Assembly: GCA_937967805.1 (NCBI GenBank)
Contig: CALBTC010000022.1
Span: 1-18,076, forward strand
From: an uncultured Anaerolineaceae bacterium
GTDB taxonomy: Bacteria > Chloroflexota > Anaerolineae > Promineifilales > Promineifilaceae
Direction: 5' to 3'
Length of the DNA: 18,076 nucleotides
The position numbers were made by a program, and so were the translations under genes. Below are positions 52 to 17,712 of the stretch, piece by piece. Below the pieces are notes generated by a model. It was not told where the DNA came from and did not search any database. It saw only the letters and a program-made list of their open reading frames with translations. The stretch's first letter is position 1. Every line of letters starts with the position of its first letter.

Positions 52-2658
52 TTATTCTGCCACTGGCCAGAAATCATCATCGTCATCATCATCATCATCA
101 TCGTCGTCACCAACACCGCCCTGGCTGCATGGACCAAGCGTATCGCCATGACCCTTGTGTGCATTTTCCCAGGCGGATCTGCTCACCGTGATGGTGTGGC
201 GGTTGTCGGGATTTCCCGGCGGAATATGACAAATCGTGACCTGTCCGCCGCCGGCATCACCGTCGTCGTCATCATCATGGCCAGGACCACCGTCATCACC
301 TGGACCTGGCGTGGTATTGATGATGACTTGAATCACGATGATGTTCACAACAACGATTGTGTCATCGTCGCCCAGGCAAATGTTGATGGCAATGGTGCTG
401 TTGGGAACCAGGTTGCCATCTACTTCAATATCGTCATCCAGAGTGAGCGTTGGCCAGTTGGCCAGCACAATTTGGCTGCCGTTGATGGTGGTAATGCGCG
501 TGTGCACGGTGAAGCAGCCGGTTGTTGGGGGCAGCAACGGCCGTATCCACACAATCTCCCAACTGCCATCGTCGGCCAGACGCGCCGCCACCTGTACCAA
601 CATACCCACTTCGAGATCATCGTCCAGGCGTGACTCATCCGTCAGCAGCAGCGTGATGCCGTTGACCATCCAGGGATCAATGCTCTCAAGAATGCCCGTA
701 AAGCGCAGAATGATCTCATCGTCATTGTCGTCGTCCAGCAGCTTGATTTCCTCAGCCAGCCAGGTGCCGTCGGGCAAGATAATGCCTTCTACTTTAACCA
801 GACTGCCGGGTTCAACGGCCGAATCAATCTCCGTCCATTCATCCGTTGCCAGCGCAATGCCGGCGACCATCCAGGGATCTGTCGTTTCGACCAGCCCGAT
901 GAACTCAAAGTCGTTATCATCGTCATCGTCGTCATCTGCGGCTTTGATTTCGCGGGCCAGCCAGGCGCCATCCGGAGTGATTTGACCTTCTACTTTGGCC
1001 ACATCGCCCACTTCCAGATCGTCTTTGATTTCGGTACGGTCGTCCACCACCACTGCAATCCCGGAAATTTGCCAGCTTTCATCGCCGATGGTTTGCACCA
1101 CGCCGGTAAACTCAAACGGAGCACCTTCCGCTGCCTGTTTTTGAATGCGTCGCGCCAGCAGGCTACCATCTGCCTGCACCACGCCGCTGACGCGCACCCA
1201 ATCACCGGTTTCGATGTCAGGATCAACGGCCGTTTCCCCATCCAGCAGGATAACCAGATCGCCCAACAGCCACTGCTCAGCGCCTATTTCGGTGACAACG
1301 GCCGTCAGCGTAAACAAATTCTGCGACACCTCGCGCACCAGCACAATCTGGTCCGCCACTTTGGTGCCGTCCGGCAGCAGGTGTCCCTGTACCATCACCC
1401 AGTCGCCCACCTGCGGATTGCCCACAATGACCGTTTGGTCGTCGGTGGCAAACGTCTGCCCGCCAATGGTCCAGGTTTCGCCAATTTCCGTCACTTCCCC
1501 TTCGCCGCTCACCTGAAAGACAGGATCGGCGGGTGGTTCATCGGCCACAATGGTGCTGAGCTGGCCGGCCATTACCACTACTGTGATATTGATGCTGGTG
1601 ACATCGACGCGGCCCTCCAGCACGGTGTAGCGGCTGCTGAGATCAGGCAGCACAACCACTTCAAAGATGGTGCCGCGGGCAATGCCCGTGCCGGTTGGCG
1701 ATTTCACTTCGTATTGCGAACCGCTGTCGTTGCGGAACTCAACGTCGTGGGTGCTGGTGCCCTGCCATTGGGTCAAAACAACTGTGCGAAACCCTTCTTC
1801 TGGGCGCAGCGCGTTTAGCGTATCGATAGAAATTTCGCTGTCCGGCCCCAGCCTGGCCACGCTGCCGTCAAAAAAGGTGAGGCTGGCTTTGGACAGCGCG
1901 CCGGTGCGCACTCGGGTTCCGGCGGCCACGCTGCTAAGGGTGCTGACCTGTTCCCAATTGCCATCCGGTTTTTGCACGGAAACGACGCCTTGCAGATCGC
2001 CGAGAACGGCCGTTTGCGGACCCGTTTGCAAAGGAGCCGTTATATTGGGCAAATAAAGCGCAAAGCCCGGATCGTCTTCCGGCACGACAGCCACCTCGGC
2101 CGCCTCGCCTGTAACTGTTTCGCCACTGGCTACAGGCGGGGCCGCATCTGCCGGCGCATCGGCTACCTCTTCATTCTCACCAAACAGCCGGTCCAACAGG
2201 GAAGGACCTTCGGCTTCACTCTCTTGTGCCGGTTGATCCGCATCCCGATCCAGGACCGTGGCGCTGTTGTCCGCGCCGCGCTCGAACCAACCATAGGCAA
2301 AGCCAAAGATGACCAGTAAAACGGCAGCAAAAGCCGTCGCTCCGATCGCTACGGCCCGATGGCTGCGCCACCAATCCACAAAGGCGGCGAAAGCGGCAAA
2401 CCTGCCTTCAGCGGGCTCGTTCGCCGCCTCTGCGGATGAGAGCTGTGCCTGCGCCGCCCGCAAAACGGCCGCTCTGTGATGGGTGACGGCCGTTTCCTCC
2501 GGTTCCGGCAATTCCAGTTCTTTTAATTCAGCAGCGAGGTTGAGGGTTACGGCCGTTTCATCCGGCAAATCCGCCCCAGCGGTGGTCAACGGCTCCCCCG
2601 CCTCCAACCGCGCCAATCGTTCTTGTAGTAGCTCATCGTAATCGTTCATCGTTTGCAT
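52..2658 (-). CDS. Membrane FecR-domain protein with DUF5666-like repeats, putative anti-sigma/surface sensor
   Basis: 868 residues; a second Met at residue 4 (2649) is an equally possible start, as neither has a clear ribosome site. Residues 1-100 are acidic and presumably cytoplasmic. One membrane helix lies at about 102-120. A FecR-like domain follows at about 215-360 (VRTGALSKASLTFFDGS region). Then come five DUF5666-like modules (about 385-445, 450-508, 515-573, 585-640, 652-706), each with a pattern like V-G-x-V-x-V-x-G-x-x-x-x-D-G-x-x-x-A, and a degenerate sixth. Poly-Asp linkers separate some modules. The C-terminus holds a CHIPPGNPDNRHTI module with a later Cys (about 806-844) and a 12-Asp run. 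FecR proteins regulate ECF sigma factors, and the next gene upstream is one, so an anti-sigma role is likely. The cytoplasmic part shows no zinc anti-sigma motif. Much longer than classic FecR (about 320 residues). The Asp-rich outer region might bind divalent cations (inference). Confidence 0.85.
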   Translation of the reverse strand: MQTMNDYDELLQERLARLEAGEPLTTAGADLPDETAVTLNLAAELKELELPEPEETAVTHHRAAVLRAAQAQLSSAEAANEPAEGRFAAFAAFVDWWRSHRAVAIGATAFAAVLLVIFGFAYGWFERGADNSATVLDRDADQPAQESEAEGPSLLDRLFGENEEVADAPADAAPPVASGETVTGEAAEVAVVPEDDPGFALYLPNITAPLQTGPQTAVLGDLQGVVSVQKPDGNWEQVSTLSSVAAGTRVRTGALSKASLTFFDGSVARLGPDSEISIDTLNALRPEEGFRTVVLTQWQGTSTHDVEFRNDSGSQYEVKSPTGTGIARGTIFEVVVLPDLSSRYTVLEGRVDVTSINITVVVMAGQLSTIVADEPPADPVFQVSGEGEVTEIGETWTIGGQTFATDDQTVIVGNPQVGDWVMVQGHLLPDGTKVADQIVLVREVSQNLFTLTAVVTEIGAEQWLLGDLVILLDGETAVDPDIETGDWVRVSGVVQADGSLLARRIQKQAAEGAPFEFTGVVQTIGDESWQISGIAVVVDDRTEIKDDLEVGDVAKVEGQITPDGAWLAREIKAADDDDDDDNDFEFIGLVETTDPWMVAGIALATDEWTEIDSAVEPGSLVKVEGIILPDGTWLAEEIKLLDDDNDDEIILRFTGILESIDPWMVNGITLLLTDESRLDDDLEVGMLVQVAARLADDGSWEIVWIRPLLPPTTGCFTVHTRITTINGSQIVLANWPTLTLDDDIEVDGNLVPNSTIAINICLGDDDTIVVVNIIVIQVIINTTPGPGDDGGPGHDDDDDGDAGGGQVTICHIPPGNPDNRHTITVSRSAWENAHKGHGDTLGPCSQGGVGDDDDDDDDDDDDFWPVAE
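74..111. repeat. Trinucleotide microsatellite encoding poly-Asp
   Basis: A run of TCA/TCG triplets on the plus strand, read as GAT/GAC (Asp) on the minus strand, near the C-terminus of the FecR-like protein. It encodes the terminal 12-Asp tract. Smaller runs of the same kind occur near 257-281, 720-740 and 915-940. Slippage would change the tract by whole codons without a frameshift. Confidence 0.85.
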
Positions 2659-2767
2659 CCCATACCAATCAAGTAATGATTCTAATCTTCAATCTGTGAA
2701 ATGGTTCGGCTCACTCAATTGCATTGAGCAGCTCACCACAAGCCTGCGCAATCTGCGGATAAAAAAC

Positions 2768-3328: not shown

Positions 3329-3435
3329 AGATTTTTTTCGGTTGTTGATCAACGTTTCTACTAAGAGTAACGGCAATTGTTTACAAAGGATGCAAATTGG
3401 TACAAAAGGGGGTGGATTTTACTGAAATAACAAAG

Positions 3436-4872
3436 TTAAAGCTGTACTTCGTCACGGGTCCAGGCTTTGGGGAAGTGGCTTTCTACCTGGTTAGATTTGG
3501 CGTGGAAGATGCCCAGCCCCAGCGAATAACCCCGGTTGCACACGACAACGTAGCCGGTATCTGTGCAGTTTGCAGTTTGGGCAGCGCTGGGGGTGATGGT
3601 TTGACGCTGGAGGTAGGCCTGGGCCTGGATCGTGGTTAGCTCGATGCGGTTGCGGGTGGCGTGTTGGCCCAGCAGCATGGTAGCGGCCGTTGTCATTTTG
3701 GGGTAACGGCCGCTGTCTCGCATAAAAAAGAGGCCGGGGGAATCCAGACGGGGTTGAAGCGGCAGCTGCTGGTCCCGGCTCACCAAATACACCCCGCGCT
3801 TACTCCAGCGCACAATATCAAAATCATCAAACACCGCCGGGTCGATGCCAAACCGCTCCGTCACAATCCCCAGCCACGGCTCCGTTTCGATCATTTTTTC
3901 AACGCGGAGGCGCGGAGAACGCAGAGAAATGTCATCCTCTCTCTGCGGCCTCTGCGCCCCTGCGGTCAATTCCAACACCGCCACAAAAAATCCGCCGGTA
4001 TCATTTTGCTGCGGCCAGATGCGGCCGGCGTGGCGCAGGTCGGGGTGCAGCCGCTGGCTTTGCCATTCAGTGAGGCCGGGCGAAGCGACCAAACCTGGCA
4101 CGTTGCTGGGGTACAGGCGGAGACTGTCGCCTGCTTCGCGCAGGATGGTATTGACGACCAGCTCGTTTTCTTCCGGGGCGAAGGTGCAGGTGGCGTAAAC
4201 GATGCGTCCGCCGGGGCGGCAGAGCTGCACCGCCTTGCGCAGCAGCGCCGTTTGGATGCGGGCCAGCTTTTGCGACGCACCCACCGACGAAGGTTCCAGG
4301 ACGCTGGGGTCTTTGCGGCAGGTGCCTTCGCAGGAGCAGGGCACATCGACCATAATTTTGTCGAACAGCCCAATCTCGGCCGGCAGATTGCCGCCGTCGT
4401 GGGTCATGGTGGTGACGTTGGCCAGACCAATGCGGTTAAGGGCGTGGCGGGCGGCGCGCATACGGCCGTTGCTCCGATCATTGGCGATTAGCGTGCCCTG
4501 GTTTTGCATCATTGTCCCCATTTGAGCCGTTTTGTTACCGGGCGCGGCGCACAGGTCCAGCACCCGCTCCCCCGGCTGCGGGTTGAGCAGCAGCGCCGGC
4601 AGCAGGGCGGCTTCTTCCTGCACCTGGTACAGTCCGGCCAGATATTCCCAGCGCAGACCGGGCATCACCTCATCGGGCAGGCGGAACGCGCCGGGATACC
4701 AGGGAATTGGCGTCAGTTCCACACCCCCTTCGGCCATCAGAGTTTGTAGTTTGTCTGGCGTAATTTTCAGGGGATTGGCCCAGATGGTGGTGGGTAACGG
4801 CCGTTGCACCGCCGCCACAAAATCTTCCCAATCCTCAATTAAATCCCGGTACCGCTTAAAATAATCCATCAT
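3436..4872 (-). CDS. rsmF: RsmF/RsmB-type rRNA (cytosine-5) methyltransferase
   Basis: 478 residues (a second Met at 4869 is also possible), close to E. coli RsmF (479). NOL1/NOP2/Sun family enzymes transfer methyl from SAM to C5 of rRNA cytosines. Visible motifs: SAM-binding motif I DLCAAPGNKTAQ at about 106-117; motif IV DVPCSCEG with Cys179; motif VI TCTFAPEENE with Cys229. The family uses two cysteines, one for attack and one for product release, and both are present. The N-terminal 100 residues match the RNA-binding cap of the family. After the catalytic domain comes a C-terminal RsmF-like/PUA-like part (about 326-478). About 22 residues between the two parts (304-325) are encoded by a palindromic repeat and appear inserted. 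Divergent from the nitroreductase gene. RsmF is favoured over RsmB because of length and the C-terminal extension; the target base is not certain. Confidence 0.9.
   Translation of the reverse strand: MMDYFKRYRDLIEDWEDFVAAVQRPLPTTIWANPLKITPDKLQTLMAEGGVELTPIPWYPGAFRLPDEVMPGLRWEYLAGLYQVQEEAALLPALLLNPQPGERVLDLCAAPGNKTAQMGTMMQNQGTLIANDRSNGRMRAARHALNRIGLANVTTMTHDGGNLPAEIGLFDKIMVDVPCSCEGTCRKDPSVLEPSSVGASQKLARIQTALLRKAVQLCRPGGRIVYATCTFAPEENELVVNTILREAGDSLRLYPSNVPGLVASPGLTEWQSQRLHPDLRHAGRIWPQQNDTGGFFVAVLELTAGAQRPQREDDISLRSPRLRVEKMIETEPWLGIVTERFGIDPAVFDDFDIVRWSKRGVYLVSRDQQLPLQPRLDSPGLFFMRDSGRYPKMTTAATMLLGQHATRNRIELTTIQAQAYLQRQTITPSAAQTANCTDTGYVVVCNRGYSLGLGIFHAKSNQVESHFPKAWTRDEVQL
3901..3966. repeat. 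Imperfect palindromic repeat inserted in frame in the rRNA methyltransferase
   Basis: Arms 3901-3929 and 3938-3966 are inverted copies (22 of 29 positions match by eye) around an 8-nt loop. The arms are built from GCGGAGG/CGCAGAG-like words, related to the CCACAGAG hairpins at 7455 and 8966. The 66 bp equal 22 codons and read through without a stop, giving the stretch AQRPQREDDISLRSPRLR between the catalytic and C-terminal domains. Confidence 0.75.
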
Positions 4873-5609: not shown

Positions 5610-5618
5610 ACTACGATA

Positions 5619-6274: not shown

Positions 6275-6366
6275 TGAAAATCCTCCATTATTGCAAAATG
6301 ACAAACGGCCGTCTTGCATAATTATGTAAAATCACTAGCTACCTATTTCTTTCATACAACAACGGT

Positions 6367-6396: not shown

Positions 6397-6455
6397 CTCA
6401 ATATTAACCAGTTTTGCTCGCATAAATTACAGTTGATTAACGGCCGTTGTGAAAA

Positions 6456-6606: not shown

Positions 6607-7446
6607 GTGAGTATCCTATCGAAAACTCAAACAACTTCGCCCAAATCGGTAACTACGCCACTCACCAAATTGGTGCCCATTACGTCTGATTTTGCTGTAG
6701 GTAGCACCAATGTGGTGCTGATGGCCGGTCCTTGCTCGGTTGAAAGCTATGCCCAGACGCGCGCTGCGGCCGAAGCGGTGGCTCTGGTAGGCGGCCGCGT
6801 ATTGCGCGGCGGAGCCTTCAAACCGCGCACCTCGCCAGACAGCTTCCAGGGGCTTGGTCAAGAAGGGCTGGAAATTTTGCGTGACGTGGCCGATGAGTTT
6901 GGCCTGCTGGTCATCACCGAGGCATTGGCCGTGGAACATGTGCCGTTGGTTGCTCGCTATGCCGACATCATTCAGCTAGGCAGCCGCAACATGCAGCATT
7001 ATCCTCTACTTTGGGCTGTGGGTGAACTGGAAAAGCCGGTGCTGCTAAAGCGTGGTTTTATGTCAACCATCGACGAGTGGCTCAAAGCGGCCGAGCACAT
7101 TAGCAGCCGGGGCAACACAAACATCATGCTGTGCGAGCGCGGCATTCGCACGTTTGAGACGGCCACGCGCAACACGCTGGACACAAATGGCATTGCCCTG
7201 GTCAAGCAGCTCAGCCCGTATCCCATCATTGCCGATCCCAGCCATGCCACCGGACGGGCCGACCTGGTGCTGCCCGCGGCGCGTGCCGCCGTTGCTGCCG
7301 GAGCCGATGGCCTGCTGGTCGAATTTCATCCCGATCCGGCCAATGCCCTTTCCGACGGCCAGCAATCGCTGCCGCTGACGGCCCTGCCCCATTTTGTGGA
7401 AGAGGTGGGCAAGATTACGGCCGTTTTCGGCCGTCGTTTCACCTAA
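6607..7446 (+). CDS. aroF: 3-deoxy-7-phosphoheptulonate (DAHP) synthase, type I-beta
   Basis: 279 residues from a GTG with AAGGA just upstream (about 6596-6600). It condenses phosphoenolpyruvate with erythrose 4-phosphate, the first step to chorismate, in the cytoplasm. Family signatures run in order: AGPCSVES (about residue 40), [16 protein letters not shown] (PEP-binding loop), [20 protein letters not shown], [12 protein letters not shown] (metal Cys), [12 protein letters not shown] (metal His) and [10 protein letters not shown]. This pattern and length are those of the I-beta/KDO8P synthase-like class. The first 30 residues are not a full ferredoxin-like (ACT-type) regulatory domain as in Thermotoga, so it may be unregulated by that route or controlled by a partner. 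It has its own promoter, a long leader and a hairpin terminator right after the stop. Confidence 0.96.
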
Positions 7447-7542: not shown

Positions 7543-7995
7543 ATGACCGACTTCATCTTCAGCCTGGGCTACTTTGGGCTGTTTCTCATCAGCTTTTTGT
7601 CTGCTTCGCTGCTGCCGCTGGCGTCTGAGGTGTTTGTGGTGGGAATGCCGCCGCTGGGCTACAATGTTTGGGGCGTGATCGTTGTGGCGACGCTTGGGAG
7701 CTACTCAGGTTCTGTGGTTAATTACTTGATCGGCAAAAAGGGCACGGATTTTGTGCTGGGCCGCTATGTGAAGATTGATCCCAAGACCTGGGACCGGGCA
7801 GAACGCTTTTATAACCGGTGGGGGCCGGTGGCCCTCTTTTTTTCCTGGGTTCCATTTATTGGCGATCCGTTAACGGCCGTTGCCGGTGCCCTCAACATGC
7901 ATTTTGGCGTCTTCAGCTTTTGGGTGCTCTTTGGCAAAACGCTGCGCTACCTGGTATTGCTCGGCATTGCCTCCCGTTTTCTCAATATGTTTTAA
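7543..7995 (+). CDS. YqaA-like small DedA/VTT-superfamily membrane protein
   Basis: 150 residues; ATG start with only a weak GAG upstream. Hydrophobic stretches at about 5-30, 40-62, 90-112 and 120-148 suggest an integral inner-membrane protein. The family core is visible: F-L-S-A-S-L-L-P-L-A-S-E-V near the start, a GSYSGSVVNYLIGKKG segment, and the re-entrant-loop motif FFSWVPFIGDPLTAVAGALNM with the conserved P-x-x-G-D-P. This matches YqaA, a short relative of DedA lipid transporters/scramblases, although the function of YqaA itself is not established. It lies 96 bp after DAHP synthase but beyond its terminator, so it probably has its own promoter; none is obvious. One ACGGCCGT octamer (7873) encodes Thr-Ala-Val in the conserved loop. 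Confidence 0.88.
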   Translation: MTDFIFSLGYFGLFLISFLSASLLPLASEVFVVGMPPLGYNVWGVIVVATLGSYSGSVVNYLIGKKGTDFVLGRYVKIDPKTWDRAERFYNRWGPVALFFSWVPFIGDPLTAVAGALNMHFGVFSFWVLFGKTLRYLVLLGIASRFLNMF

Positions 7996-9090: not shown

Positions 9091-9612
9091 ATGAAAAATG
9101 AAGCGTTGTTTACGGCCGTTCCCCACCTTCCCAACCTAATGGAAACGGCCGATCACATTGACATAAAAACTGTCAGCGGTGATGTGTCGCTGCGGGAATT
9201 TATTGCCGGCATGATTTCTTACAGTCCTGGCTGGGTCAAATTTCTGTATGGCGTGCGCTGGTTTTTTGTGCGGCTGTTGGGAATGAAGCAAGAAGGCCTG
9301 CCCCAGGAGCTGACAATGCAACCGGAAGATGTCTCATTTGTCACGGGAGAACCAGCGGCCTTTTTCTCGGTAAAAATGGCAAAGGAAGACAAATACTGGT
9401 TTGCCGGGATCACTGAATCCCACCTGACGGCTCATTTGGGTGTCATTGTGGAGCCAGGCCAGCCAAACCGCTTTCACGTGCTGACGATTGTCCATTACAA
9501 CCGTTGGACGGGCCCGGTGTACTTTAATGTGATACGGCCGTTTCACCATCTCGTCGTCGGACAAATGATGAAAGCGGGTGTGAGGCAGTCGTTACGTTTG
9601 CAGGAAACTTAA
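9091..9612 (+). CDS. DUF2867-like protein
   Basis: 173 residues; ATG with GGAG at 9080-9083. The sequence has the look of the DUF2867 family: a short N-terminal part (ADHIDIKTVSGDVSLREFIAGMI), a middle with YWFAGITESHLTAHLGVIVEP, and the conserved end VLTIVHYNRWTGPVYFNVIRPFHHLVVGQMM. No catalytic motif is recognised; the compact strand-rich pattern suggests a small ligand-binding fold. The amphipathic stretch KFLYGVRWFFVRLLGM might touch the membrane, but no clear transmembrane helix is seen. Its last 21 bp overlap the tail of the convergent arsenate reductase gene. Two octamers (9112 and 9534) lie inside. The family call is from memory of the pattern and is moderate. Confidence 0.75.
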   Translation: MKNEALFTAVPHLPNLMETADHIDIKTVSGDVSLREFIAGMISYSPGWVKFLYGVRWFFVRLLGMKQEGLPQELTMQPEDVSFVTGEPAAFFSVKMAKEDKYWFAGITESHLTAHLGVIVEPGQPNRFHVLTIVHYNRWTGPVYFNVIRPFHHLVVGQMMKAGVRQSLRLQET

Positions 9613-10005
9613 AATTTGATCGGCTATCTCATCACGGATTTGGCGGAAAACGGCCGTTACTTCTTCATCGGTCCCGGTGGCTTCGGCCGGATCATAAAAA
9701 CCGATGTGCGTTTTTTGCCCCGCCTTCTCCAGCCAGACCGGGCACGTTTCTTTGGCCGAATCGCAAACGGTAATCACGTGGTCAAAATATTGCCCCTTGA
9801 ACAACTCTGTTGACTTAGATTCGTTCCGGCTCAGGTCAATGCCCAGCTCGCCCATGACGGCAATCGCCTTTGGATGCACATAGCCGCTGGGCTGCGTGCC
9901 TGCGGAATAGGCCACATATTGGTCGCTTAAGCGGGCGTTGATCAACCCCTCCGCCATCTGGCTGCGGCACGAGTTGCCGGTACACAAAACAAGCACTTTT
10001 TTCAT
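9592..10005 (-). CDS. arsC: Arsenate reductase, thioredoxin-coupled (low-molecular-weight phosphatase fold)
   Basis: 137 residues; ATG with GGGAG about 9 nt upstream. The start KKVLVLCTGNSCRSQMAEG holds the phosphatase loop C-x5-R (Cys8 to Arg14). Two further cysteines sit at 81 and 88 in CDSAKETCPV, with the same spacing as the Cys82/Cys89 shuttle of Staphylococcus aureus ArsC. FYDPAEATG carries the Asp-Pro general acid. The complete triad supports arsenate-to-arsenite reduction recycled by thioredoxin rather than simple phosphotyrosine phosphatase activity. No arsR regulator or arsenite exporter is in the window, so export must be encoded elsewhere or the enzyme acts in another role. It lies downstream of trpB on the same strand, separated by 62 bp containing a strong palindrome, and overlaps the convergent DUF2867-like gene by 21 bp. 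Confidence 0.92.
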   Translation of the reverse strand: MKKVLVLCTGNSCRSQMAEGLINARLSDQYVAYSAGTQPSGYVHPKAIAVMGELGIDLSRNESKSTELFKGQYFDHVITVCDSAKETCPVWLEKAGQKTHIGFYDPAEATGTDEEVTAVFRQIRDEIADQILSFLQT

Positions 10006-10067: not shown

Positions 10068-11273
10068 TTACAAATCCAGGGCAGACATCACCGTGTTGAG
10101 GTCTTTATCTCCCCGCCCGCTTAAATTAACCAAAATAATTTGATCCGACCGCATTTTGGGCGCCTGCTTGATCGCTTCAGCTACGGCGTGGCTGGATTCC
10201 AGCGCGGGGATAATGCCCTCAGTTTTACATAACGTTTGGAATGCTACCAGGGCTTCTTCATCGGTGGCGTAAGTGTAGCCCGCCCGCTCCTGGTCGCGCA
10301 GCAGGGCGTGTTCCGGCCCCACGCTGGGATAATCCAGCCCGGCGCTAATGCTGTGTGTTTCCATGATCTGGCCATCGGCCGTTTGCATCACGTAGCTTTT
10401 GGTGCCGTGCAGCACACCCACGCGGGCAATGTTCATGTCGGCAAAACGAGCCGCGTGCTTGCCGCTGGCAATGCTCTCCCCACCCGCCTCCACGCCAATC
10501 AACACCACGTCCTCATCATTGCGGAAGGCGTGGAAGATGCCCATCGCGTTGCTGCCGCCGCCGACGCAGGCAATGATCGTGTCGGGCAATTTACCGACTT
10601 CGTCCAACATCTGCTGCCGCGCTTCGTGGCCAATCACGCTTTGGAAGTCGCGCACCATCATCGGGTATGGGTGCGGTCCCAAAACCGAGCCAAGCAGGTA
10701 ATGGGTTGTCTCCACATGGGTCACCCAGTCGCGAATCGCTTCGTTAATGGCATCCTTGAGCGTTTTGCTGCCGCTTTCCACGGCGCGCACTTCGGCGCCG
10801 AGCAGCTTCATGCGGTAGACGTTGGGCTGCTGCCGGGCAATATCCACGCTGCCCATGTAGACGATGCATTCCAGCCCCAGCAGCGCACAGGCGGTCGCCG
10901 TGCCCACGCCATGCTGCCCCGCCCCCGTCTCGGCCACGATGCGGGTTTTGCCCATCCGTTGCGCCAGCAGCGCCTGCCCCAGGGCGTTGTTGATTTTGTG
11001 CGCCCCGGTATGGTTTAAATCTTCCCGCTTGAAGTAAATTTGGGCACCGCCCAGGCTGGCGCTGAGCCGCTTGGCGTGGGTGATGGGCGACGGCCGTCCC
11101 ACATAGCTCTTCAATAAATGGTTAAATTCGGACATAAACGCCTCGTCCTGGCGCACTTCATCGTAGACGTGAATCAGTTCATCCAGGGCAGGCATGAGCG
11201 TTTCCGGCACAAACTGGCCGCCGTACGGGCCAAATTTGCCGCGCTCGTCGGGAACGGTTGTAGATTGCATCAT
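10068..11273 (-). CDS. trpB: Tryptophan synthase beta subunit
   Basis: 401 residues from the ATG at 11273, chosen for GAGGA seven nt upstream; the open frame reaches 11390 but that extension has no ribosome site and crosses the likely promoter. The enzyme makes L-tryptophan from indole and serine with PLP. The sequence is classic TrpB1: [19 protein letters not shown] at the start, [18 protein letters not shown] with the PLP lysine (about residue 93), [38 protein letters not shown], the phosphate-binding GGGSNAMG and the terminal SGRGDKD. Length matches the family. It stands without trpA, trpC or trpF next to it; trpF lies about 4 kb away in another unit. A TGCTATAAT promoter sits just upstream. 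Confidence 0.97.
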
Positions 11274-11313: not shown

Positions 11314-11401
11314 AGGGGCATGAATTGTGGTGTAAACGTTTTGTAAACGGCCGTACAGGGCAAAGGGTGAAAATGCCGTAGATCGAACAATAGAATTTTT
11401 T

Positions 11402-11439: not shown

Positions 11440-12492
11440 TTATTTGATTGCGTCAAAGCCAAAATCCCAACCACCCAGCAAAGTCACGCTGCCCTCGTTG
11501 CTCGTTTCGATGTGGAACCACCAGGTCTCATTGGCCCACGCTTCTGGCTCTACGTGCACAAAATTGGCGTCTTCCTCCACGCCGCTGCTAAAGCCAAAGA
11601 TGGAAGCCAGGAAACGGCCGTTGCCATCAAGCCCCATAACCGCGGTATAAGATTCATCTGGAGAGAGCGTTGTGTTCCGGGCAAACTGGTCGGCGGCCGT
11701 TGCTTCGCCATTTTCCAGCGATTCGCTTTCTGGCTGCCGCAGCGCCTGCAGCGTAATGACGCGCGTCGCGTCGTCCGAATTGGCTGCATTTTGCAGGGAG
11801 AAAGTGACAATAGAGTTGCTGCTGCTCACCTCCGACATCTCAAAGTCAATTAAAATGCCCTGACCCGGAGCAAACGTTTTATCCCGCACCAACACCGATT
11901 GCGGCCCGATTGTTACCGTTTCATCGGAAACAACCGCATTTGAAGAAGTCACGCGCCAGCCGGGCAGCCCTTCTTCAAAAAAAAGGTCGGTTTGCGGCTC
12001 GGGGTTTTCCACCAGCGTGGCCAGCTTAATAGCCAATCCCTCATCGTTGTCAAAGGCGCCGCCGGTCTCACGCAAGTTCATAACCACGAGCACAACCACC
12101 ACAATGAGCACCAGGGCGGCCAGTCCAATGAGCAGGTTTTTGTTTTGTAACAGAGATGAGGTGGTGGGGGTGGGAACGGCCGTTTCCGCCTCACTATAAT
12201 CCACATGAAAACTCAACGGTTCAATTCTGGCTGCCTCCAGCAGGGGCTGCCAATCTTCTCGGGGGCGCAGCGCCTGGCAGCGCTCAACAAACTCGGGAAT
12301 GCGCTGCTGTCTGGCCAAAATTTGCAGCAGCTCAACCACTTTCCCCGACTTTCCTCGCCCCGGCAAATCATCATAATCCAGATTGAAATCAAAGGCTAAT
12401 TCGTGCATTTCGTTGGTATCAAAGGACCGGTTGACCAGATCGCGCAGCTCAGCCGCCCAATTGGTTGGAGTTGGCGATGGGTCTGATTTCAT
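11440..12492 (-). CDS. Membrane protein with N-terminal EAD-like (death-fold) domain and outer domain
   Basis: 350 residues; ATG with GAGGTG upstream. Residues 13-78 (AELRDLVNRSFDTNEMHELAFDF, then DYDDLPGRGKSGKVVELLQ, then LARQQRIPEFVERCQALRP) match my memory of the effector-associated domain EAD1, a small helical adaptor fold that joins parts of bacterial conflict and signalling systems. A flexible Pro/Thr linker leads to one membrane helix (118-140), after which comes an outer strand-rich domain of about 200 residues (GWRVTSSNAVVSDETVTIG; FAPGQGILIDFEMSE; ETWWFHIETS; LLGGWDFGFDAIK), which looks like a lectin/LamG-type beta-sandwich. The layout is that of a receptor: sensor outside, adaptor inside. 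EADs usually pair with another EAD on a protease or NTPase; no such partner is in this window. Divergent from the GMC oxidoreductase. Confidence 0.8.
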   Translation of the reverse strand: MKSDPSPTPTNWAAELRDLVNRSFDTNEMHELAFDFNLDYDDLPGRGKSGKVVELLQILARQQRIPEFVERCQALRPREDWQPLLEAARIEPLSFHVDYSEAETAVPTPTTSSLLQNKNLLIGLAALVLIVVVVLVVMNLRETGGAFDNDEGLAIKLATLVENPEPQTDLFFEEGLPGWRVTSSNAVVSDETVTIGPQSVLVRDKTFAPGQGILIDFEMSEVSSSNSIVTFSLQNAANSDDATRVITLQALRQPESESLENGEATAADQFARNTTLSPDESYTAVMGLDGNGRFLASIFGFSSGVEEDANFVHVEPEAWANETWWFHIETSNEGSVTLLGGWDFGFDAIK

Positions 12493-12776: not shown

Positions 12777-14489
12777 ATGCAACTTTCATCCCCCAAATCT
12801 GAGCTTAAGAAACGGTATCAAATCGTGGTCATCGGTTCGGGCTATGGCGGCAGCATTGCCGCCTCGCGGCTGGCGCGGGCCGGCCAGGAGGTGTGCCTGC
12901 TGGAGCGGGGGCGCGAGCTTCAGCCGGGCGACTACCCAAACAGCGAACTTGAGCTGGCCAAGGAAACGCAAATGAACACCCCGTTAGGCCGCGTTGGCAG
13001 CAAAACGGCGCTCAATGAATACCACGTCAACGATGAGATGACTGTTTTGGTGGGATGTGGTTTGGGCGGCGGCTCCATTATCAATGGCAACGTGGCGCTG
13101 CGCACCGATCCGCGCATTTTTGAGCATCCCGACTGGCCGCAGCCCTTCCGCGAAGATGTAACCACCCGGCTGGCGCGCGGCTACGAGCTGGCCGAGCAGA
13201 TGTTGGGCACAACAACGTACCCGGACAACTTTCCCACTGTTGCCAAATTTGAGGCGTTACAAAAAACGGCCGCAGCCCTCAATGCCAACTTCTATCCCGC
13301 CCCCATGAACGTCACCTTTAAGGATGGACCCAACGTGGTGGGCATTGAGCAAAAAGCGTGCCGGCTGTGCGGTGACTGCATGACCGGCTGCAACTACCAC
13401 GCCAAAAACACCCTCATCATGAACTACCTGCCCGATGCCAAAAAACACGGTGCCCGCATCTTTACCGAAATTGAAGTGCATCATCTGGCGCGCAGCGACG
13501 GAGAATGGACCGTCCACTGTCGCATTCTGGGCGATTCAGATGCCGCCAAAGCCCAGCCGGAGCGCATCATCAAAGCGGGTTTGGTGATTTTGGCGGCGGG
13601 CACGTTGGGGTCTACCAAGATTATGTTTCGCTCGCGCCAGGCCGGGCTGGCTTTGTCGCCGCAGTTGGGGCATCACTTTTCGGGTAACGGCGATGTGGGC
13701 GCGTTTGCCTACAACAACGATGTGCCGGTAAACGCCGTGGGCACCGGCCCAAAGGCGGCCAGCAAGCCACCGGTCGGACCGCTGATCAATGGGGTCATCG
13801 ATACCCGCCCGCAGGTTGACAACTGGCAAGAGGGGTTGGTGATCCAGGAAGGCACCTTCCCCAGCGCGGCGGCCCTGCCGCTGGCCAAGGGGCTCAAGGT
13901 GATGGCCACAGCATCGGGCAAGGACACGGATAAAGGGCTGGTTGACAAGCTGAAGGAAAAGTATCGAGAATGGGTCAGCTTTTTCCGGGGACCGTATCAC
14001 GGTGCGGTGCACCATACGCTCATGTGGCTGGTGATGACCCACGATGACAGCCGTGGGCGGCTTGTTCTGGAAAAAGACCGCATTCGGATTATTTGGCCCG
14101 ACATCGGCGATCAGCCTTTTGCCAAACGGATCAATGATTTTTTACGGCGGGGCACGGCCGTACTCGGCGGCACCTTTGTCTCTAATCCGTTGTGGAGCCT
14201 GCTGGCCGACCGGCCGATGGTTACCTCCCATCCGCTGGGCGGCTGCCCCATGGGTGAGGATGCCTGGCGCGGTGTGGTGAACCATAAGGGGCAGGTATTT
14301 TCTGGGGATGGGGGAACGGCCGTTCACGAAGGGCTCTACATTTGCGACGGCTCCGTCATTCCCCATTCCATCGGCGTTAATCTGATGCTGACCATCTCGG
14401 CTATGACCGAACGGGCCATTGCCATCCTGGCAGAGGAGCGCGGCTGGCAAATTGATTACCGCCTGCGCGGGTATGACAATTCCAATTGA
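12777..14489 (+). CDS. GMC-family FAD oxidoreductase (cholesterol-oxidase-like) with four-cysteine motif
   Basis: 570 residues from the ATG at 12777, which has AAGGAGG (12761-12767) at ideal distance; an in-frame TTG at 12771 lies too close to that site. YQIVVIGSGYGGSIAASRLARAG plus LLERG is the FAD-binding Rossmann start. GCGLGGGSIINGNVALR is the second GMC flavin motif. A C-x2-C-x2-C-x3-C cluster, CRLCGDCMTGC (residues 195-205), sits in the middle and resembles a 4Fe-4S ferredoxin motif. Near the end, TSHPLGGCPMG and VIPHSIGVNLMLTISAMTERA carry the active-site His and the terminal FAD contacts. Such enzymes oxidise alcohols such as sterols; the substrate is unknown here, and the cysteines hint at an electron-transfer acceptor other than oxygen. 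No signal peptide is seen. It is the only plus-strand gene between 9612 and 17934. Confidence 0.93.
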   Translation: MQLSSPKSELKKRYQIVVIGSGYGGSIAASRLARAGQEVCLLERGRELQPGDYPNSELELAKETQMNTPLGRVGSKTALNEYHVNDEMTVLVGCGLGGGSIINGNVALRTDPRIFEHPDWPQPFREDVTTRLARGYELAEQMLGTTTYPDNFPTVAKFEALQKTAAALNANFYPAPMNVTFKDGPNVVGIEQKACRLCGDCMTGCNYHAKNTLIMNYLPDAKKHGARIFTEIEVHHLARSDGEWTVHCRILGDSDAAKAQPERIIKAGLVILAAGTLGSTKIMFRSRQAGLALSPQLGHHFSGNGDVGAFAYNNDVPVNAVGTGPKAASKPPVGPLINGVIDTRPQVDNWQEGLVIQEGTFPSAAALPLAKGLKVMATASGKDTDKGLVDKLKEKYREWVSFFRGPYHGAVHHTLMWLVMTHDDSRGRLVLEKDRIRIIWPDIGDQPFAKRINDFLRRGTAVLGGTFVSNPLWSLLADRPMVTSHPLGGCPMGEDAWRGVVNHKGQVFSGDGGTAVHEGLYICDGSVIPHSIGVNLMLTISAMTERAIAILAEERGWQIDYRLRGYDNSN

Positions 14490-14513: not shown

Positions 14514-15059
14514 CTATGTCTGGAGAGTACGCAGTTTCTCGGCACATTGCAGCAAAACCAGGGCGGAGGGCGCGTCGCTGATCTGGCCGGCGTAGGCCAT
14601 TTGCAATACCTGGTCGATGGGTTTGCGGTGGACCTCAATCACTTCGGCCGGTTCGTGGGCCGGCGCGGCGAGGGTGACGCCGGTGGCCAAAAAGTAGTGA
14701 CCCACTTCATCACAAATGCCGTTGGCAGTATAAAACTGGCCCAAATGGGTCAATTCCTCGCAGGTGCCGCCCACTTCCTCATGCAGTTCTTCTAAGGCCG
14801 CTTCGGCCAACGTTTGCCCCGGCTTCACGCCACCGGCGGGCAGCTCCCAGCACCAGTCATCAACAGTGTACCTGTAGCTGCGGCACAAGACGATTTCATC
14901 CTGATGTGTTACGGGTAGAATCCAAACGGCCGTTGGCTTCGTCACCGTGTTGTAAACTCCCTGGCTGCCATCGGGCAGCAAGATCTCATCCTGGCGCACG
15001 GCGTACCAGGGGCAGGACCAGGCGATATGGGAAGATAATGTTTTGATAGGTCGTTTCAC
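14514..15059 (-). CDS. NUDIX hydrolase (ADP-ribose pyrophosphatase-like)
   Basis: 181 residues from a GTG at 15059. This start is weak: there is no ribosome site, and the DNA immediately upstream is a heptamer repeat array; the frame stays open further up without an ATG. NUDIX enzymes cleave X-linked nucleoside diphosphates using Mg2+. The box is visible in LPAGGVKPGQTLAEAALEELHEEVGG, but two consensus positions differ: the first Glu is Thr and the Arg of R-E-x-x-E-E is Glu, while the catalytic E-L-x-E-E core is kept. The strand pattern before it (AVWILPVTHQDEIVLCRSYRYTVDDWCWELP) and the acidic F-Y-T-A-N-G-I-C-D-E after it fit ADP-ribose pyrophosphatase relatives. It lies 26 bp after the trpF stop and is likely cotranscribed. 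Activity may be altered by the changed box. Confidence 0.88.
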   Translation of the reverse strand: MKRPIKTLSSHIAWSCPWYAVRQDEILLPDGSQGVYNTVTKPTAVWILPVTHQDEIVLCRSYRYTVDDWCWELPAGGVKPGQTLAEAALEELHEEVGGTCEELTHLGQFYTANGICDEVGHYFLATGVTLAAPAHEPAEVIEVHRKPIDQVLQMAYAGQISDAPSALVLLQCAEKLRTLQT

Positions 15060-15101
15060 AATGGTTAATGGTAAATTGTAAATGGTTAATGGTTAATGGC
15101 A
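15060..15101. repeat. Six tandem heptamers at the trpF/NUDIX junction
   Basis: On the plus strand the units are AATGGTT, AATGGTA, AATTGTA, AATGGTT, AATGGTT, AATGGCA. The array covers the last codons and stop of trpF (giving the C-terminal AINH) and abuts the GTG start of the NUDIX gene, replacing any ribosome site there. It resembles the heptanucleotide short tandem repeats described in filamentous cyanobacteria. Confidence 0.8.
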
Positions 15102-15808
15102 CTCTTGGCGTTTTGGATGAAGGCGCGGACGAGGCTGGGGTCTTTTTGGCCGGGGCTGGCTTCGACACCGCTGGCGACATCGACGGCAAACGGCCGTACC
15201 ACTCTTACCGCCTCGGCCACATTGTCGGCATTCAAACCGCCGGCCAGCATCAAGCCGGGAATCGACTGGGCCAGTTGGGCGCTCATCGCCCAATCGCCCG
15301 TCTCCCCCGTACCGCCGCGCAGCGTGGGATGATAAGTGTCAATCAGCAAAGAAGGAGATTGGAGATTAGAGATTAGAGATTGCTCGCCACCCATTGATTC
15401 ACTGATTACTGAATACTGCTTACCGTTCACCGGCACCGCATACCACTCCGCCTCCGCTTCCGCTTCGGCCAGGCTGGTAGGGCGCAGCGCTTTGTAGGAA
15501 CGGCCGTAAATTGGCGACCGTTCATCCCCCACCAAGAACGGCACCTCTTCGCCGCTGAGCTGAGCCAGGTCCAGGCCAACCTCGTCTAAAATCTCGGCCA
15601 TGCGCGGGCCGGTTTCGTTGACAAAGACGCCCACCAACACCGGGCAGCGAGGCGCCGCACGCAGCGTTTGCACAACGGCTTTGGCCGTGTTTATCTCAAT
15701 TGCGCGTTTGCTGGGTGGGTAGAAGATAAAACCAAGATAGTCGGCGCCGGCGGTGACGGCCGTTTGGGCATCGGCCAGGTTGGTGAGGCCGCAAATTTTT
15801 ACGTTCAT
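15086..15808 (-). CDS. trpF: Phosphoribosylanthranilate isomerase with repeat-encoded insertion
   Basis: 240 residues, about 25 more than usual (205-215). It converts phosphoribosylanthranilate to CdRP in tryptophan synthesis on a TIM barrel. Seen in order: MNVKICGLTNLADA with the catalytic Cys6; GADYLGFIFYPPSKR; VGVFVNE; the QLHGDE equivalent as QLSGEE; SYKALRP; LLIDTY with the catalytic Asp157, then GGTGETGDW; LMLAGGLNADNV; and VDVASGVE with the phosphate-binding end. The extra length is one block, residues 127-152, just before the catalytic strand, encoded by two degenerate heptamer tracts. Because the catalytic residues and the reading frame survive, the enzyme may still work, but this needs proof. 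The stop codon itself lies in another heptamer array. A weak AGAGG precedes the ATG. The gene carries three octamers. Confidence 0.93.
   Translation of the reverse strand: MNVKICGLTNLADAQTAVTAGADYLGFIFYPPSKRAIEINTAKAVVQTLRAAPRCPVLVGVFVNETGPRMAEILDEVGLDLAQLSGEEVPFLVGDERSPIYGRSYKALRPTSLAEAEAEAEWYAVPVNGKQYSVISESMGGEQSLISNLQSPSLLIDTYHPTLRGGTGETGDWAMSAQLAQSIPGLMLAGGLNADNVAEAVRVVRPFAVDVASGVEASPGQKDPSLVRAFIQNAKSAINH
15354..15428. repeat. Two heptamer tracts inserted in frame in trpF
   Basis: Tract one (15354-15381) reads GGAGATT twice then AGAGATT twice. Tract two (15401-15428) reads ACTGATT, ACTGAAT, ACTGCTT, ACCGTTC. Together with the 19 bp between them they almost exactly cover codons 127-152 of trpF, the block absent from normal TrpF proteins. 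Lower GC than the flanking gene. Confidence 0.75.
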
Positions 15809-16007
15809 GCCTCTATTATGCCGTGCCGCAGCAGCCAGGCCAATAGGGAAGAGATTGCTAGGGGTTCAACCATTCCGAAGATTTGTAACACTCCTGATCT
15901 TTCTCCAAGACCAATTAGAATGTTTGGGCTTTTAGCCACGCGTTGCAGTATGGCAGATTCTTCAACCAGGAAGTGGATGCAATGGGAACGGCCGTCCCAC
16001 GATTGGG

Positions 16008-16778
16008 CTACTGTAACGTTGGAAAAAGCTCTAGCAGGGCCAGCGACAAATAAAGCAGCAAAACGGCCGCACTGTTTGTGGTCAGGTGGATGATGATGGA
16101 AATGAAGAGGGAGCGGGTGCGCTCGTAAGCGTAGGCATTGACCAGGCCAATGACAAAGCTGGCGGCCACCACGCTGATGCTGTCGGCGTGGGCCAGGGCA
16201 AAGATAGCGCCGCTGGCCAACACGCGCAGCCAAACGCGCTCCATTTTGCCCCAAAACCAGGTGTGCAGCAGACCGCGAAAATACAGCTCTTCAGAAATGG
16301 GCACCAAAATCCCGGCACCAATAAGCGTGCTGAAAAAGCCGATCCAGGAAAATTCCAGCGCCCCACCCATGATCAGATCGCTGCGGGCTTGCAGGCTGTC
16401 CAGGTTGCCCTCCACCAGCATCTGCACCAGCAGCCCCAGCACCGCCCGCCCCGGCAGCAGCAGGATGGCCACCCCGGTGCCAATCAGCAGCCACTGCCAG
16501 CGCCAGCGCAACGGCCGTAGCCCCAGCCCGCGCCAGCTAATCTTCCCCCGCCGCACACCCAGCAGATAGGTGGTGCCGGCCAGACAAACAAAATTGGCCA
16601 AGAAGATCAGGAACGAAGCCCCCAGGCTAATTTCCACAAACAGCCACCCGATTAACCCGGACAGCAAAATAAACGAGCCAAAGCCGACCAGCAAATAGAG
16701 CGCCAGGTCTAGCCAGCTCTGCGGTGCAGGGGCCGGGTCCGCTGTTTCTGCTACGACCGGTTGCTTAATCTCCGCCAT
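16008..16778 (-). CDS. CPBP-family intramembrane protease (Abi/CAAX-like), second of a pair
   Basis: 256 residues from the ATG at 16778, preceded by GGAG nine nt upstream; a TTG directly before it is less likely. Hydrophobic helices cover most of the protein after a short Pro/Ala-rich N-terminus. Three active-site motifs of the CPBP (Rce1-like) family are present: SEELYFRG (Glu-Glu and Arg, about residues 163-168), FALAH (His about 197) and HLTTN (His and Asn about 231/235). In this numbering the first Met is the ATG. CPBP proteins include prenyl-protein endopeptidases, bacteriocin immunity proteins and signalling proteases; the substrate here is unknown. The start overlaps the end of the upstream CPBP gene by 14 bp, so translation is probably coupled. 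Confidence 0.92.
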   Translation of the reverse strand: MAEIKQPVVAETADPAPAPQSWLDLALYLLVGFGSFILLSGLIGWLFVEISLGASFLIFLANFVCLAGTTYLLGVRRGKISWRGLGLRPLRWRWQWLLIGTGVAILLLPGRAVLGLLVQMLVEGNLDSLQARSDLIMGGALEFSWIGFFSTLIGAGILVPISEELYFRGLLHTWFWGKMERVWLRVLASGAIFALAHADSISVVAASFVIGLVNAYAYERTRSLFISIIIHLTTNSAAVLLLYLSLALLELFPTLQ

Positions 16779-17712
16779 CAAACAGTTCTCCAGGCTGAAC
16801 CGCCGGTCCGGTGCGCTGCCGCAGTAAAATCAGGTAAAAGAGTGCGGCAATCACCCATAAGGAACTCAGCGCGTAAACAGCGTCCAGCTCCGTGACGAGG
16901 AAAATGGACTCCGTTTGCAAGGCAGAGTTGGTGTAGTTGGCAAAGAGGGCCGAGTAAAGATTGTTGGCCGCGTGAGCGCCAATGGCCAGCTCGGCCGAAT
17001 TGTCGCGCAGGGTAACAAAAGCAAAAAAGGCACCGATGCTCAGGTAAAACAGCGGCAGCAAAATAGCGCTGGCGGCTAGCTCCGGGTTGCCCAAATGCGG
17101 GATCATAAACAACACGCCATTCACCAGCGCCAGCACCAAAAAGTTGCGCCCCAAATGGCCGCTGGCCTGCAGCAGATAGCCGCGAAACAGCAGCTCTTCG
17201 GCGGTGGTTTGCATGGGGGTAAGCAGCAGCACCGCCAGGGCAAACACAAAAAAGCGGCCTGGGTTGAAAACAACGGTATAAATCTCTGGATTGATGAGAT
17301 ATTCCACCACGCTGGCCAATGTCACTAGCAGCAGCCAGACGCTAAACCCCTGCGCCACGCGCCGCCAGTTGATCTGTTTGGCCGGGGTGATGATGGAGCG
17401 CAACGGCCGTCCATGCACAAACTTCACCGTGATAAATACGCCCACAATCAACAGGGCAAAGCTCAGACTGAGCACGATGTAGTTAAAAAGGGGATCAACC
17501 CCGGTGAAGAAACCTGTTTGCATGTTGACGGCCGTTTCCGGATCACCGTCAATCATTACCCAAAATAACGGCACCACCAGAAACATGGAGCCGAGCACAA
17601 ACCAAAAAAACAAAATCAGAACCAGGCCAAAAAAGTAACGGTACCACTCTGTCTGCCCCAAATAAACCTGATCCAGGAAAGAGTCCGAGGCCTTATTAGC
17701 AATATCATCCAT
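16765..17712 (-). CDS. CPBP-family intramembrane protease (Abi/CAAX-like), first of a pair
   Basis: 315 residues; ATG with a weak GAGAG upstream. Several membrane helices (about 27-53, 75-97, 122-140, 153-167, 190-206, 212-235, 283-302). Active-site motifs: AEELLFRGYL (Glu172, Glu173, Arg177), a His in FMIPHLGN (His206) and HAANN (His247, Asn251). It is diverged from its neighbour, with a longer N-terminus and a polar C-terminal tail, so the pair is either an old duplication or two subfamilies. First gene of the minus-strand run that goes on with the second CPBP gene, trpF and the NUDIX gene. TATGAT on the minus strand (17754-17749) is a possible -10, without a clear -35. Two octamers lie inside. 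Confidence 0.92.
   Translation of the reverse strand: MDDIANKASDSFLDQVYLGQTEWYRYFFGLVLILFFWFVLGSMFLVVPLFWVMIDGDPETAVNMQTGFFTGVDPLFNYIVLSLSFALLIVGVFITVKFVHGRPLRSIITPAKQINWRRVAQGFSVWLLLVTLASVVEYLINPEIYTVVFNPGRFFVFALAVLLLTPMQTTAEELLFRGYLLQASGHLGRNFLVLALVNGVLFMIPHLGNPELAASAILLPLFYLSIGAFFAFVTLRDNSAELAIGAHAANNLYSALFANYTNSALQTESIFLVTELDAVYALSSLWVIAALFYLILLRQRTGPAVQPGELFDGGD

Follow-up and report, generated by a model that had tools for sequence, protein, structure and literature searches.

A highly iterated palindrome in Chloroflexota genomes and a candidate methyltransferase gene linked to NotI-like genes

The 18,076-nucleotide stretch of DNA analysed here (the window) holds 29 exact copies of the octamer ACGGCCGT. 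We found that this word is a highly iterated palindrome (HIP), comparable to HIP1 of cyanobacteria, in 27 of the 56 genomes of one bacterial order, and that its sites are conserved one by one. Almost all of these genomes also carry MT660, a putative methyltransferase gene that stands beside a NotI-like restriction gene in most of the carriers examined outside the order. We lean toward a reading in which ACGGCCGT is a HIP built around the word recognized by a methyltransferase that has lost the nuclease of its NotI-type system, with the target and its methylation as we infer them below.

The palindrome in the window and in related genomes

An exact count gave the same 29 copies, within 537..17535, as a first-pass annotation of this DNA. 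They are listed here with the gene that served as a probe for relatives.

537..544, no strand, exact match to ACGGCCGT
1226..1233, no strand, exact match to ACGGCCGT
1298..1305, no strand, exact match to ACGGCCGT
2006..2013, no strand, exact match to ACGGCCGT
2486..2493, no strand, exact match to ACGGCCGT
2549..2556, no strand, exact match to ACGGCCGT
4462..4469, no strand, exact match to ACGGCCGT
4797..4804, no strand, exact match to ACGGCCGT
6305..6312, no strand, exact match to ACGGCCGT
6440..6447, no strand, exact match to ACGGCCGT, intergenic
7417..7424, no strand, exact match to ACGGCCGT
7873..7880, no strand, exact match to ACGGCCGT
9112..9119, no strand, exact match to ACGGCCGT
9534..9541, no strand, exact match to ACGGCCGT
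9650..9657, no strand, exact match to ACGGCCGT
11090..11097, no strand, exact match to ACGGCCGT
11347..11354, no strand, exact match to ACGGCCGT
11614..11621, no strand, exact match to ACGGCCGT
12176..12183, no strand, exact match to ACGGCCGT
14154..14161, no strand, exact match to ACGGCCGT
14316..14323, no strand, exact match to ACGGCCGT
14926..14933, no strand, exact match to ACGGCCGT
15190..15197, no strand, exact match to ACGGCCGT
15500..15507, no strand, exact match to ACGGCCGT
15756..15763, no strand, exact match to ACGGCCGT
15988..15995, no strand, exact match to ACGGCCGT, intergenic
16511..16518, no strand, exact match to ACGGCCGT
17403..17410, no strand, exact match to ACGGCCGT
17528..17535, no strand, exact match to ACGGCCGT
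6607..7446, plus strand, DAHP synthase gene (probe for relatives, outside the palindrome system)

When the window was shuffled 200 times with its dinucleotides preserved, the mean was 0.26 copies and the maximum was 3. Among window octamers with at least 8 occurrences (both strands counted), ACGGCCGT was the most over-represented under Markov models of orders 1-5, with 0.75 sites expected at order 2, 1.3 at order 3, and 10 at order 5 (two-strand figures halved). On a chosen set of 17 open reading frames (ORFs), 27 sites are coding and lie in 14 of the ORFs, and the sites at 6440 and 15988 are intergenic. This agrees with the earlier description of a word spread over almost every gene and also between genes. 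Reading phases of the coding sites were 16, 4, and 7, with phase 0 preferred (16/27). The description "on both strands" is void of meaning because ACGGCCGT is a perfect palindrome. Chi-like recombination signals are asymmetric words with strand bias, which ACGGCCGT is not.

Relatives were found by using the DAHP synthase as a probe against genome_contigs (84,980 species), and 80 loci were kept. (In our labels, L is a locus or fetched stretch and G is a genome; G001 is the genome of L001.) The nearest were L001, from an uncultured Anaerolineae bacterium (92% DAHP synthase protein identity), and L002, from Anaerolineae bacterium SJ142 (89%). L001 is collinear with 15,378 of the window's 18,076 bases at 81% identity. 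The order of G001, as grouped in the genome database, also contains the genome of L006, titled Promineifilum. These relatives and that order back the earlier suggestion of a probable Chloroflexota source. A relative of MT660 (P0006, 86%) carries the name Candidatus Leptofilum, assigned by NCBI to Promineifilales. These relatives suggest that the window comes from the order of G001.

Five of the 80 loci matched the window in richness of ACGGCCGT (35 copies in L001, 28 in L002, 9 in 5 kb of L041, 34 in L046, and 59 in L055), and the other 75 had 0-3 copies each. One of the two closest relatives has 11,512 copies in its 7.3 Mb and the other 12,866 in 7.7 Mb, with 99 and 64 copies, respectively, of the reversed word TGCCGGCA. 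Whole-genome counts of 12 related genomes gave 6,888-15,176 copies in five, where TGCCGGCA (40-183 copies) is 82-201 times rarer, and 23-646 in the remaining seven. Therefore, the enrichment is not limited to the window; the first-pass annotation had named such a limitation as grounds for dropping its proposal. Among 298 genomes sampled from the class, ten had at least 1,727 copies, one had 1,189, and the rest had 646 or fewer. Among the 56 genomes of the order, 27 have 991-2,102 copies per Mb, and none falls between 514 and 991. We call these 27 genomes high-copy. Their density is that of a HIP, a GC-rich palindromic octamer at hundreds to thousands per Mb and in tens-fold excess. The observed/expected value was 49.5 in pooled stretches of ten genomes.

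A tree of RpoB from 30 selected genomes placed its 12 high-copy members in a single clade (support, 100/100). The clade also takes in G160, G289, G212, G189, G298, G005, G003, and G078, and the occurrence of ACGGCCGT within it is patchy. The word was spaced nearly at random along four of five contigs, and the other contig has a 25.8-kb gap. With the coding and intergenic sites of the window, this is the spread of a HIP rather than of a single array. A search for periodicity in the spacing gave no informative result.

The gap is in G002 (C90:103166-128945, in L176 and L177). This ACGGCCGT-free stretch has a GC content of 0.47, versus 0.55, and encodes a TnsA-like protein, TniB, a 5-methylcytosine (m5C) methyltransferase, and an Mrr-domain helicase. 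It is probably a Tn7-like island, and the missing word may mark its recent arrival. Four IMG/VR contigs listed as viral (L395, L432, L383, and L391) have 3.0-3.7 copies per kb, versus 1.0-2.1 in high-copy genomes; they were picked for two close ACGGCCGT copies. L395 has genes for ParA, FtsK/SpoIIIE, an SLT transglycosylase, and MoxR, and few genes could be named in the other three.

Constraint on single sites and the CGGCCG core

Of the 24 sites that could be aligned between the window and L001, 22 are the same in both. Control octamers matched for codon phase and GC were unchanged in 24% of cases, and none of 10,000 draws reached 22. Between the window and L002, six of nine sites are kept (control, 30%; P = 0.025). 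Two further pairs behaved in the same way: G008 and G009, at 86% identity, keep 16/16 sites of G008 and 16/18 of G009 (control, 0.34), and G242 and G262 keep 21/24 and 21/23 (control, 0.58). The conservation is confined to the word. Identity between G001 and the window is 0.975 within the octamer, 0.84 at the adjoining base on each side, and about 0.80 at 100-300 bp. Moreover, all 45 fourfold-degenerate positions within sites are identical between the window and its nearest relative, versus 1,177 of 2,088 (56%) elsewhere. Therefore, each site is constrained individually and at the level of DNA, and the constraint does not reach past the octamer.

Word composition was analysed in 22 other genomes, from each of which 9-221 kb was sampled. 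In 18 of the 19 clade genomes among them, no hexamer palindrome was more enriched than CGGCCG; the exception was 9 kb of G298. An A..T flank dominates in high-copy genomes (for example, 540 of 738 CGGCCG in G009). In G160, G289, and G212, CGGCCG is in excess without A..T preference (253 versus 33 expected, 112 versus 17, and 86 versus 23). In G189 the flank is G..C, with 65 copies of GCGGCCGC versus 2.0 expected in 40 kb. The lineages thus have the core CGGCCG in common, and the flanks differ among them (A..T in most, G..C in one genome, and none in others). Among MT660 carriers outside the clade, CGGCCG was in mild excess in G201 (127 versus 84) and G280 (56 versus 33) and in deficit in G086 (1 versus 16).

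One-base variants of ACGGCCGT were counted in ten pooled high-copy genomes. Variants at the outer base were at 3.9 times (T), 2.0 times (G), and 0.69 times (C) expectation; eight of nine core variants were at 0.32-0.81 times, and one was at 1.36 times. Such a bias toward the first and last bases is a further mark of a HIP.

Some related observations concern other words. GCGGCCGC, the NotI site, itself behaves as a HIP in G189 (L287 and L288). When hexamer palindromes are ranked by avoidance, GGGCCC comes within the first four in the sampled stretches of G002, G009, G202, G252, G222, G242, G262, G008, and G007 (for example, 1 versus 147 expected in G009). In G142 (L254-L258), AGGCCT, GGGCCC, and TGGCCA occur 1, 1, and 7 times versus 14, 24, and 32 expected, and CGGCCG occurs 214 times versus 32. 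CGGCCG is nearly absent genome-wide from G031, G062, and G133 (19, 16, and 13 copies). We rejected this as a sign of a CGGCCG system because GGCC itself is almost missing from short stretches of these genomes (1 versus 33.5 expected, 0 versus 17, and 0 versus 19), as if they were under a GGCC restriction system.

MT660 and the NotI-like genes

An m5C methyltransferase was rejected as the common cause of the pattern. The m5C family PF00145 had no match in 7 of the 15 word- or core-rich genomes examined, and none in high-copy G001, G007, G008, G175, G202, and G222. A PF01555 methyltransferase of about 329 amino acids (aa) in G002 was also rejected. It occurs at 70-75% identity in high-copy G222, G008, G242, G262, and G252 and also in low-copy G208 (77%), G164 (68%), and G012 (63%), and it had no close match in G001, G007, G009, G142, G175, or G202.

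Among the PF01555 matches in high-copy G001, G007, G175, and G202, MT660 alone was common to all four (as a fragment in G007). It is a protein of about 660 aa with both halves of the methyltransferase domain and a long insert. The other matches were proteins of 393 aa (G001), 949 aa (G007), 426 aa (G175), and 351 aa (G202), and RlmL-like rRNA enzymes in G001 and G175. The gene for the 393-aa protein (L197:598-1776), which has a partial PF01555 domain, adjoins a NurA-domain gene. A NurA-domain gene adjoins MT660 in G320.

In the order, MT660 is in 25 of 27 high-copy genomes versus 18 of the 29 others (Fisher, 0.010; kinship ignored). In the sample of 298 genomes from the class, 96 match MT660 at 1e-10. 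We counted as carriers the 36 with at least 48% identity, some of which have the gene in pieces, and left out the 60 with lower identity. Several matches within the order are parts at contig ends, and the gene of G105 is split over two frames. The median CGGCCG/GCCGGC ratio was 1.20 in the carriers versus 0.64 (298 genomes; kinship ignored).

Pfam assigned MT660 to N6_N4_Mtase, with a weak DUF1156 start, and the PADLOC models PglXI and DUF1156_MTase match its second half. In these features, and in a match of that half to NCBIfam DUF1156_antiphage, it resembles the DUF1156 methyltransferases, which the part of one study available to us places in anti-phage and BREX-related systems (PMC12839542). 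However, MT660 is far under the DUF1156_antiphage cut-off (84.1 and 71.2 bits; cut-off, 1000) and so is not placed in that family, and no PADLOC model matched seven of its neighbours in G001, G002, G009, G202, and G320. A fold search with a model of P0006 found general class I methyltransferases only, none at E of 0.001 or below; CcrM was among these weak matches (E = 2e-3).

MT660 adjoins MoxR-type, DUF58, and DUF4129 genes, likely the same ones, in G002, G078, G325, and G329, and it adjoins a Dus gene in G009, G306, and G305. (Neighbours were identified by Pfam in G002 and G009 and by protein similarity in the other genomes.) The common MoxR-type neighbourhood suggests that MT660 was inherited by descent. 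In a tree of 46 MT660 proteins, the sequences of the order form few groups, with four outside sequences nearby, so the tree may be compatible with a single origin in the order.

We searched the flanks of 48 MT660 loci, mostly 1.3-1.5 kb on each side. These loci came from 20 of the 25 high-copy carriers, 11 of the 18 remaining carriers in the order, and 17 of the 21 carriers outside it. A NotI-like gene or its remains stood beside MT660 at 14 of the 17 loci outside the order, 1 of the 20 high-copy loci, and 2 of the 11 others. The 14 include remnants only in G070, genes broken in pieces in G201 and G207, and a partial gene in G185; the two others within the order are whole in G189 and in pieces in G280. 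Five of the 19 high-copy loci without the gene show less than 900 bp on one side. When only well-seen loci were counted, the gene was at 1 of 15 high-copy loci versus 14 of 16 outside the order. A translated search at 14 solitary high-copy MT660 loci found no NotI-like remnant.

The gene adjoining MT660 in G252 matched the Pfam NotI family (PF12183) at 1.3e-52 and 179 bits, and the G189 gene matched it at 42.7 bits (cut-off, 22). A profile of 15 NotI-like proteins matched the solved NotI at 8.8e-7, with a conserved Asp on SFDW of NotI and a conserved Glu and Gln on LEIQ. Counting along the alignment, these are NotI residues 160, 182, and 184, which we take to be active-site residues. Among 12 aligned NotI-like proteins, D114 and Q135 are invariant and E133 is in 11, so the active-site Asp, Glu, and Gln are in place. 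The exception, with Lys in place of the Glu of the LEIQ column, is G252; no other high-copy genome was found to have a whole copy. That Glu is in the other 11 of the 12, in the other 14 of 15 in a larger alignment, and in 25 of 25 homologues.

Searches with single NotI-like proteins against solved structures gave nothing in two cases and an unrelated flagellar protein in one. A modelled homologue, P0121 (89% identical to the G086 gene; pLDDT, 70.6), had NotI chains as its first four Foldseek matches, at E values of 1.5e-7 to 7.4e-6, and the next match was at 0.096. Therefore, the gene beside MT660 is predicted to have the NotI fold. NotI cuts GCGGCCGC and EagI cuts CGGCCG. Because MT660 has a NotI-family partner, and because both of these words hold CGGCCG, it most likely protects a word with a CGGCCG core.

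A second, longer NotI-like gene was seen beside m5C methyltransferase genes in G189 (L091:396-1664) and G298 (L090:317-1513). These two methyltransferases are 65% identical.

Elsewhere in the window, 52-3376 codes for a protein that combines a FecR domain with five DUF5666 stretches, and its gene adjoins an ECF sigma factor gene. The product of 11440-12492 has effector-associated domain 7 (EAD7), which occurs in conflict systems. A search of plasmid records and of Rfam gave nothing informative.

How the palindrome may be maintained

The likeness to HIP1 drawn in the first-pass annotation is supported by the genome-wide copies, the spread over genes, the outer-base variants, and the link to a mostly solitary candidate methyltransferase gene. 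HIP1 (GCGATCGC) and the alternate HIPs are, like ACGGCCGT, GC-rich palindromes at about 1,000-2,000 per Mb. Their variants are likewise biased to outer bases beyond a methyltransferase core, their flanks are lost or changed among relatives, and a methyltransferase has been proposed for the core. ACGGCCGT is not HIP1 proper, which is GCGATCGC in cyanobacteria, whereas the nearest relatives here are Chloroflexota. The core is CGGCCG here and CGATCG there. Also, a former restriction partner is visible here in relatives; in high-copy genomes it is mostly absent and once mutated. The parts of Elhai's 2015 article available to us (PMC4390886) describe alternate HIPs of cyanobacteria, for each of which there is a methyltransferase that fits, and a bias of HIP1 one-base variants to outer bases. 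They give the CGATCG enzymes of HIP1 as m5C enzymes and term the relation between HIPs and methyltransferases a mystery (PMC4390886). The candidate here belongs instead to the amino-methyltransferases, and its start weakly resembles DUF1156.

The loci outside the order resemble a NotI- or EagI-type system in having a NotI-family gene beside MT660 and a core shared by target (GCGGCCGC or CGGCCG) and palindrome. In contrast, 19 of 20 high-copy loci have no endonuclease gene in their visible flanks, the gene at the remaining locus has lost its Glu, and the word is abundant rather than avoided. CcrM, Dam, and DmtC are solitary methyltransferases. MT660 resembles them in mostly having no endonuclease gene beside it in the high-copy genomes and in a shared gene place in several genomes of the order, but it matched the NCBIfam CcrM model only weakly (28.8 and 23.0 bits; cut-off, 830).

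If MT660 is a methyltransferase orphaned from a NotI-type system, ancestors would have had a NotI-type restriction-modification pair, and the restriction gene would have been lost early in the order. MT660 would have been retained and would recognize CGGCCG or a word holding it, a target that we infer from the NotI-type enzymes, whose cutting sites contain this core. The product would be N4-methylcytosine in CGGCCG, since MT660 belongs to the amino-methyltransferases and CGGCCG offers no A. Once the nuclease was lost, the methylated word may have been free to become more numerous and to be put to use. A second factor would then read the methylated word together with its A..T flank, the counterpart of the G..C that surrounds CGATCG in HIP1. 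(HIP1 also has a second enzyme, for its inner word GATC.) The role of this reader would most likely be genome upkeep (repair, replication, or segregation), with selection now holding each site. We favour such a role because the sites are mostly genic, extend over the whole of the examined contigs apart from some islands, and are held singly. The earlier suggestion that a matching methyltransferase could maintain the word has thereby gained a specific candidate, though not proof.

Several results weigh against this reading. MT660 is not sufficient, as 18 carriers in the order are below 900 ACGGCCGT per Mb. It is perhaps not necessary either, because high-copy G142 and G328 had no MT660 match. 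It is also absent from G160, G289, and G212 despite CGGCCG at 7.7-, 6.5-, and 3.7-fold over expectation. MT660 genomes without the restriction gene had a median CGGCCG ratio of 2.57 (n = 11) versus 0.81 (n = 15) in those with it (P = 0.049), so that absence of the NotI-like gene is only weakly tied to a higher ratio. The methyltransferase families covered were PF00145 and PF01555 only. Within PF01555, G001 has the second protein of 393 aa, which gave only weak local matches to other PF01555 proteins and had no close relative among 502 fetched loci. Distant pairs of genomes (67-73% identity; controls, 0.06-0.15) had few comparable sites and a mixed outcome, such as 6/10 sites kept in G002 and G009, 2/5 in G001 and G202, and 0/2 in G009 and G142. 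Finally, the palindrome-rich genomes of the RpoB tree are confined to one clade and the associations of gene and word are uncorrected for descent, and most of the genomes are metagenome bins, which may be incomplete.

In G142, our guess is that another enzyme has taken over. One of its m5C genes is 57% identical to a gene in G031, whose sampled stretches are nearly without GGCC. The m5C genes fetched from G142 (two of three), G160 (two of three), and G289 (two of six) had a best cross-genome identity of 44% for full-length and 41% for partial sequences.

It is possible, if rather less probable, that ACGGCCGT is the binding site of a chromosome-organizing, segregation, or repair protein, and that MT660 is merely an old gene of the clade, unrelated to the word. 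A chromosome-organizing protein was also among the suggestions of the first-pass annotation. The sharp 8-bp constraint, synonymous positions included, is as expected of a bound site, and G142 and G328 retain the word without an MT660 match. Counts per 10 kb also had at most Poisson variance in stretches of G001 and G202, but they were over-dispersed in G009, G252, and G002. A simple binding site leaves unexplained why the gene found in 25 of the 27 high-copy genomes is tied in relatives to a NotI-type enzyme, of a kind that cuts this very core. Nor does it explain the GCGGCCGC variant in G189, which keeps the NotI-like gene.

We consider it improbable that the sites are useless in themselves and arise from mismatch repair or mutation bias, by Elhai's methyl-directed model or by very-short-patch repair. 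Elhai's model, as given in the accessible parts of the article, was made for such a pattern (PMC4390886), and the enriched variants are at the outer position, as in HIP1. However, repair guided over about 1 kb should shield neighbouring bases, and identity is already down to 0.84 at the adjoining bases, near the 0.80 of 100-300 bp. The repair bias offered in the first-pass annotation is thus disfavoured in its long-range form, as conservation stops at 8 bp. Unlike what very-short-patch repair of 5-methylcytosine would leave, the core depletion is not specific to C-to-T and G-to-A changes (0.78, 0.61, and 1.36 times).

A DNA-uptake signal gathered by biased uptake within the group is very unlikely. 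Known uptake words occur at about one per 0.5-1 kb, a density that ACGGCCGT resembles, and some of the contigs listed as viral are dense in it. To our knowledge, however, uptake words are not palindromes. The core variants of ACGGCCGT are mostly depleted (eight of nine below expectation) rather than graded by mismatch, and mismatched forms are over-represented in the part of an uptake-word study available to us (PMC1939737). Codon or base-composition bias, or a single mobile repeat array, might account for the phase 0 preference, but it can be dismissed because ACGGCCGT leads under all Markov orders 1-5, occupies all three phases and two intergenic sites, and far outnumbers its reversed word in five high-copy genomes, and because loci of similar GC lack it.

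A 2018 study reportedly dealt with selection acting on HIP1. The first-pass annotation knew of no description of this word, and our search of open-access literature, by title and start of abstract, found none among the papers listed; the word itself occurred in a paper on DNA codes. The same search, with the same reach, found no HIPs outside cyanobacteria. A term search of Elhai's 2015 article, as available, did not find CGGCCG, ACGGCCGT, or Chloroflex (PMC4390886). For lake Chloroflexota of the CL500-11 group, the accessible part of one study reports methylated GANTC, TTAA, and GCWGC, with CGGCCG not in that text (PMC6329791). As far as these sources reach, HIPs are otherwise described in cyanobacteria only, and the HIP found here is in a second phylum and has another word.

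A second phylum, another word, relatives with and without it, flanks that differ by lineage on a common core, and a former restriction partner visible in neighbours make the methyltransferase hypothesis directly testable. That all 45 synonymous positions in the octamer are frozen indicates that single sites matter, and therefore argues that HIP-type words are functional rather than a by-product. More tentatively, and with more doubt than belief on our part, a restriction-modification system may here have turned into a genome-wide mark: the nuclease would be lost and the methyltransferase kept, and the word would have multiplied to one per 0.5-1 kb and be read by a protein whose task weighs enough to keep synonymous bases frozen. 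HIP1 would then be a second, independent case. If so, HIPs would be no peculiarity of cyanobacteria but what orphaned methyltransferases generally lead to.

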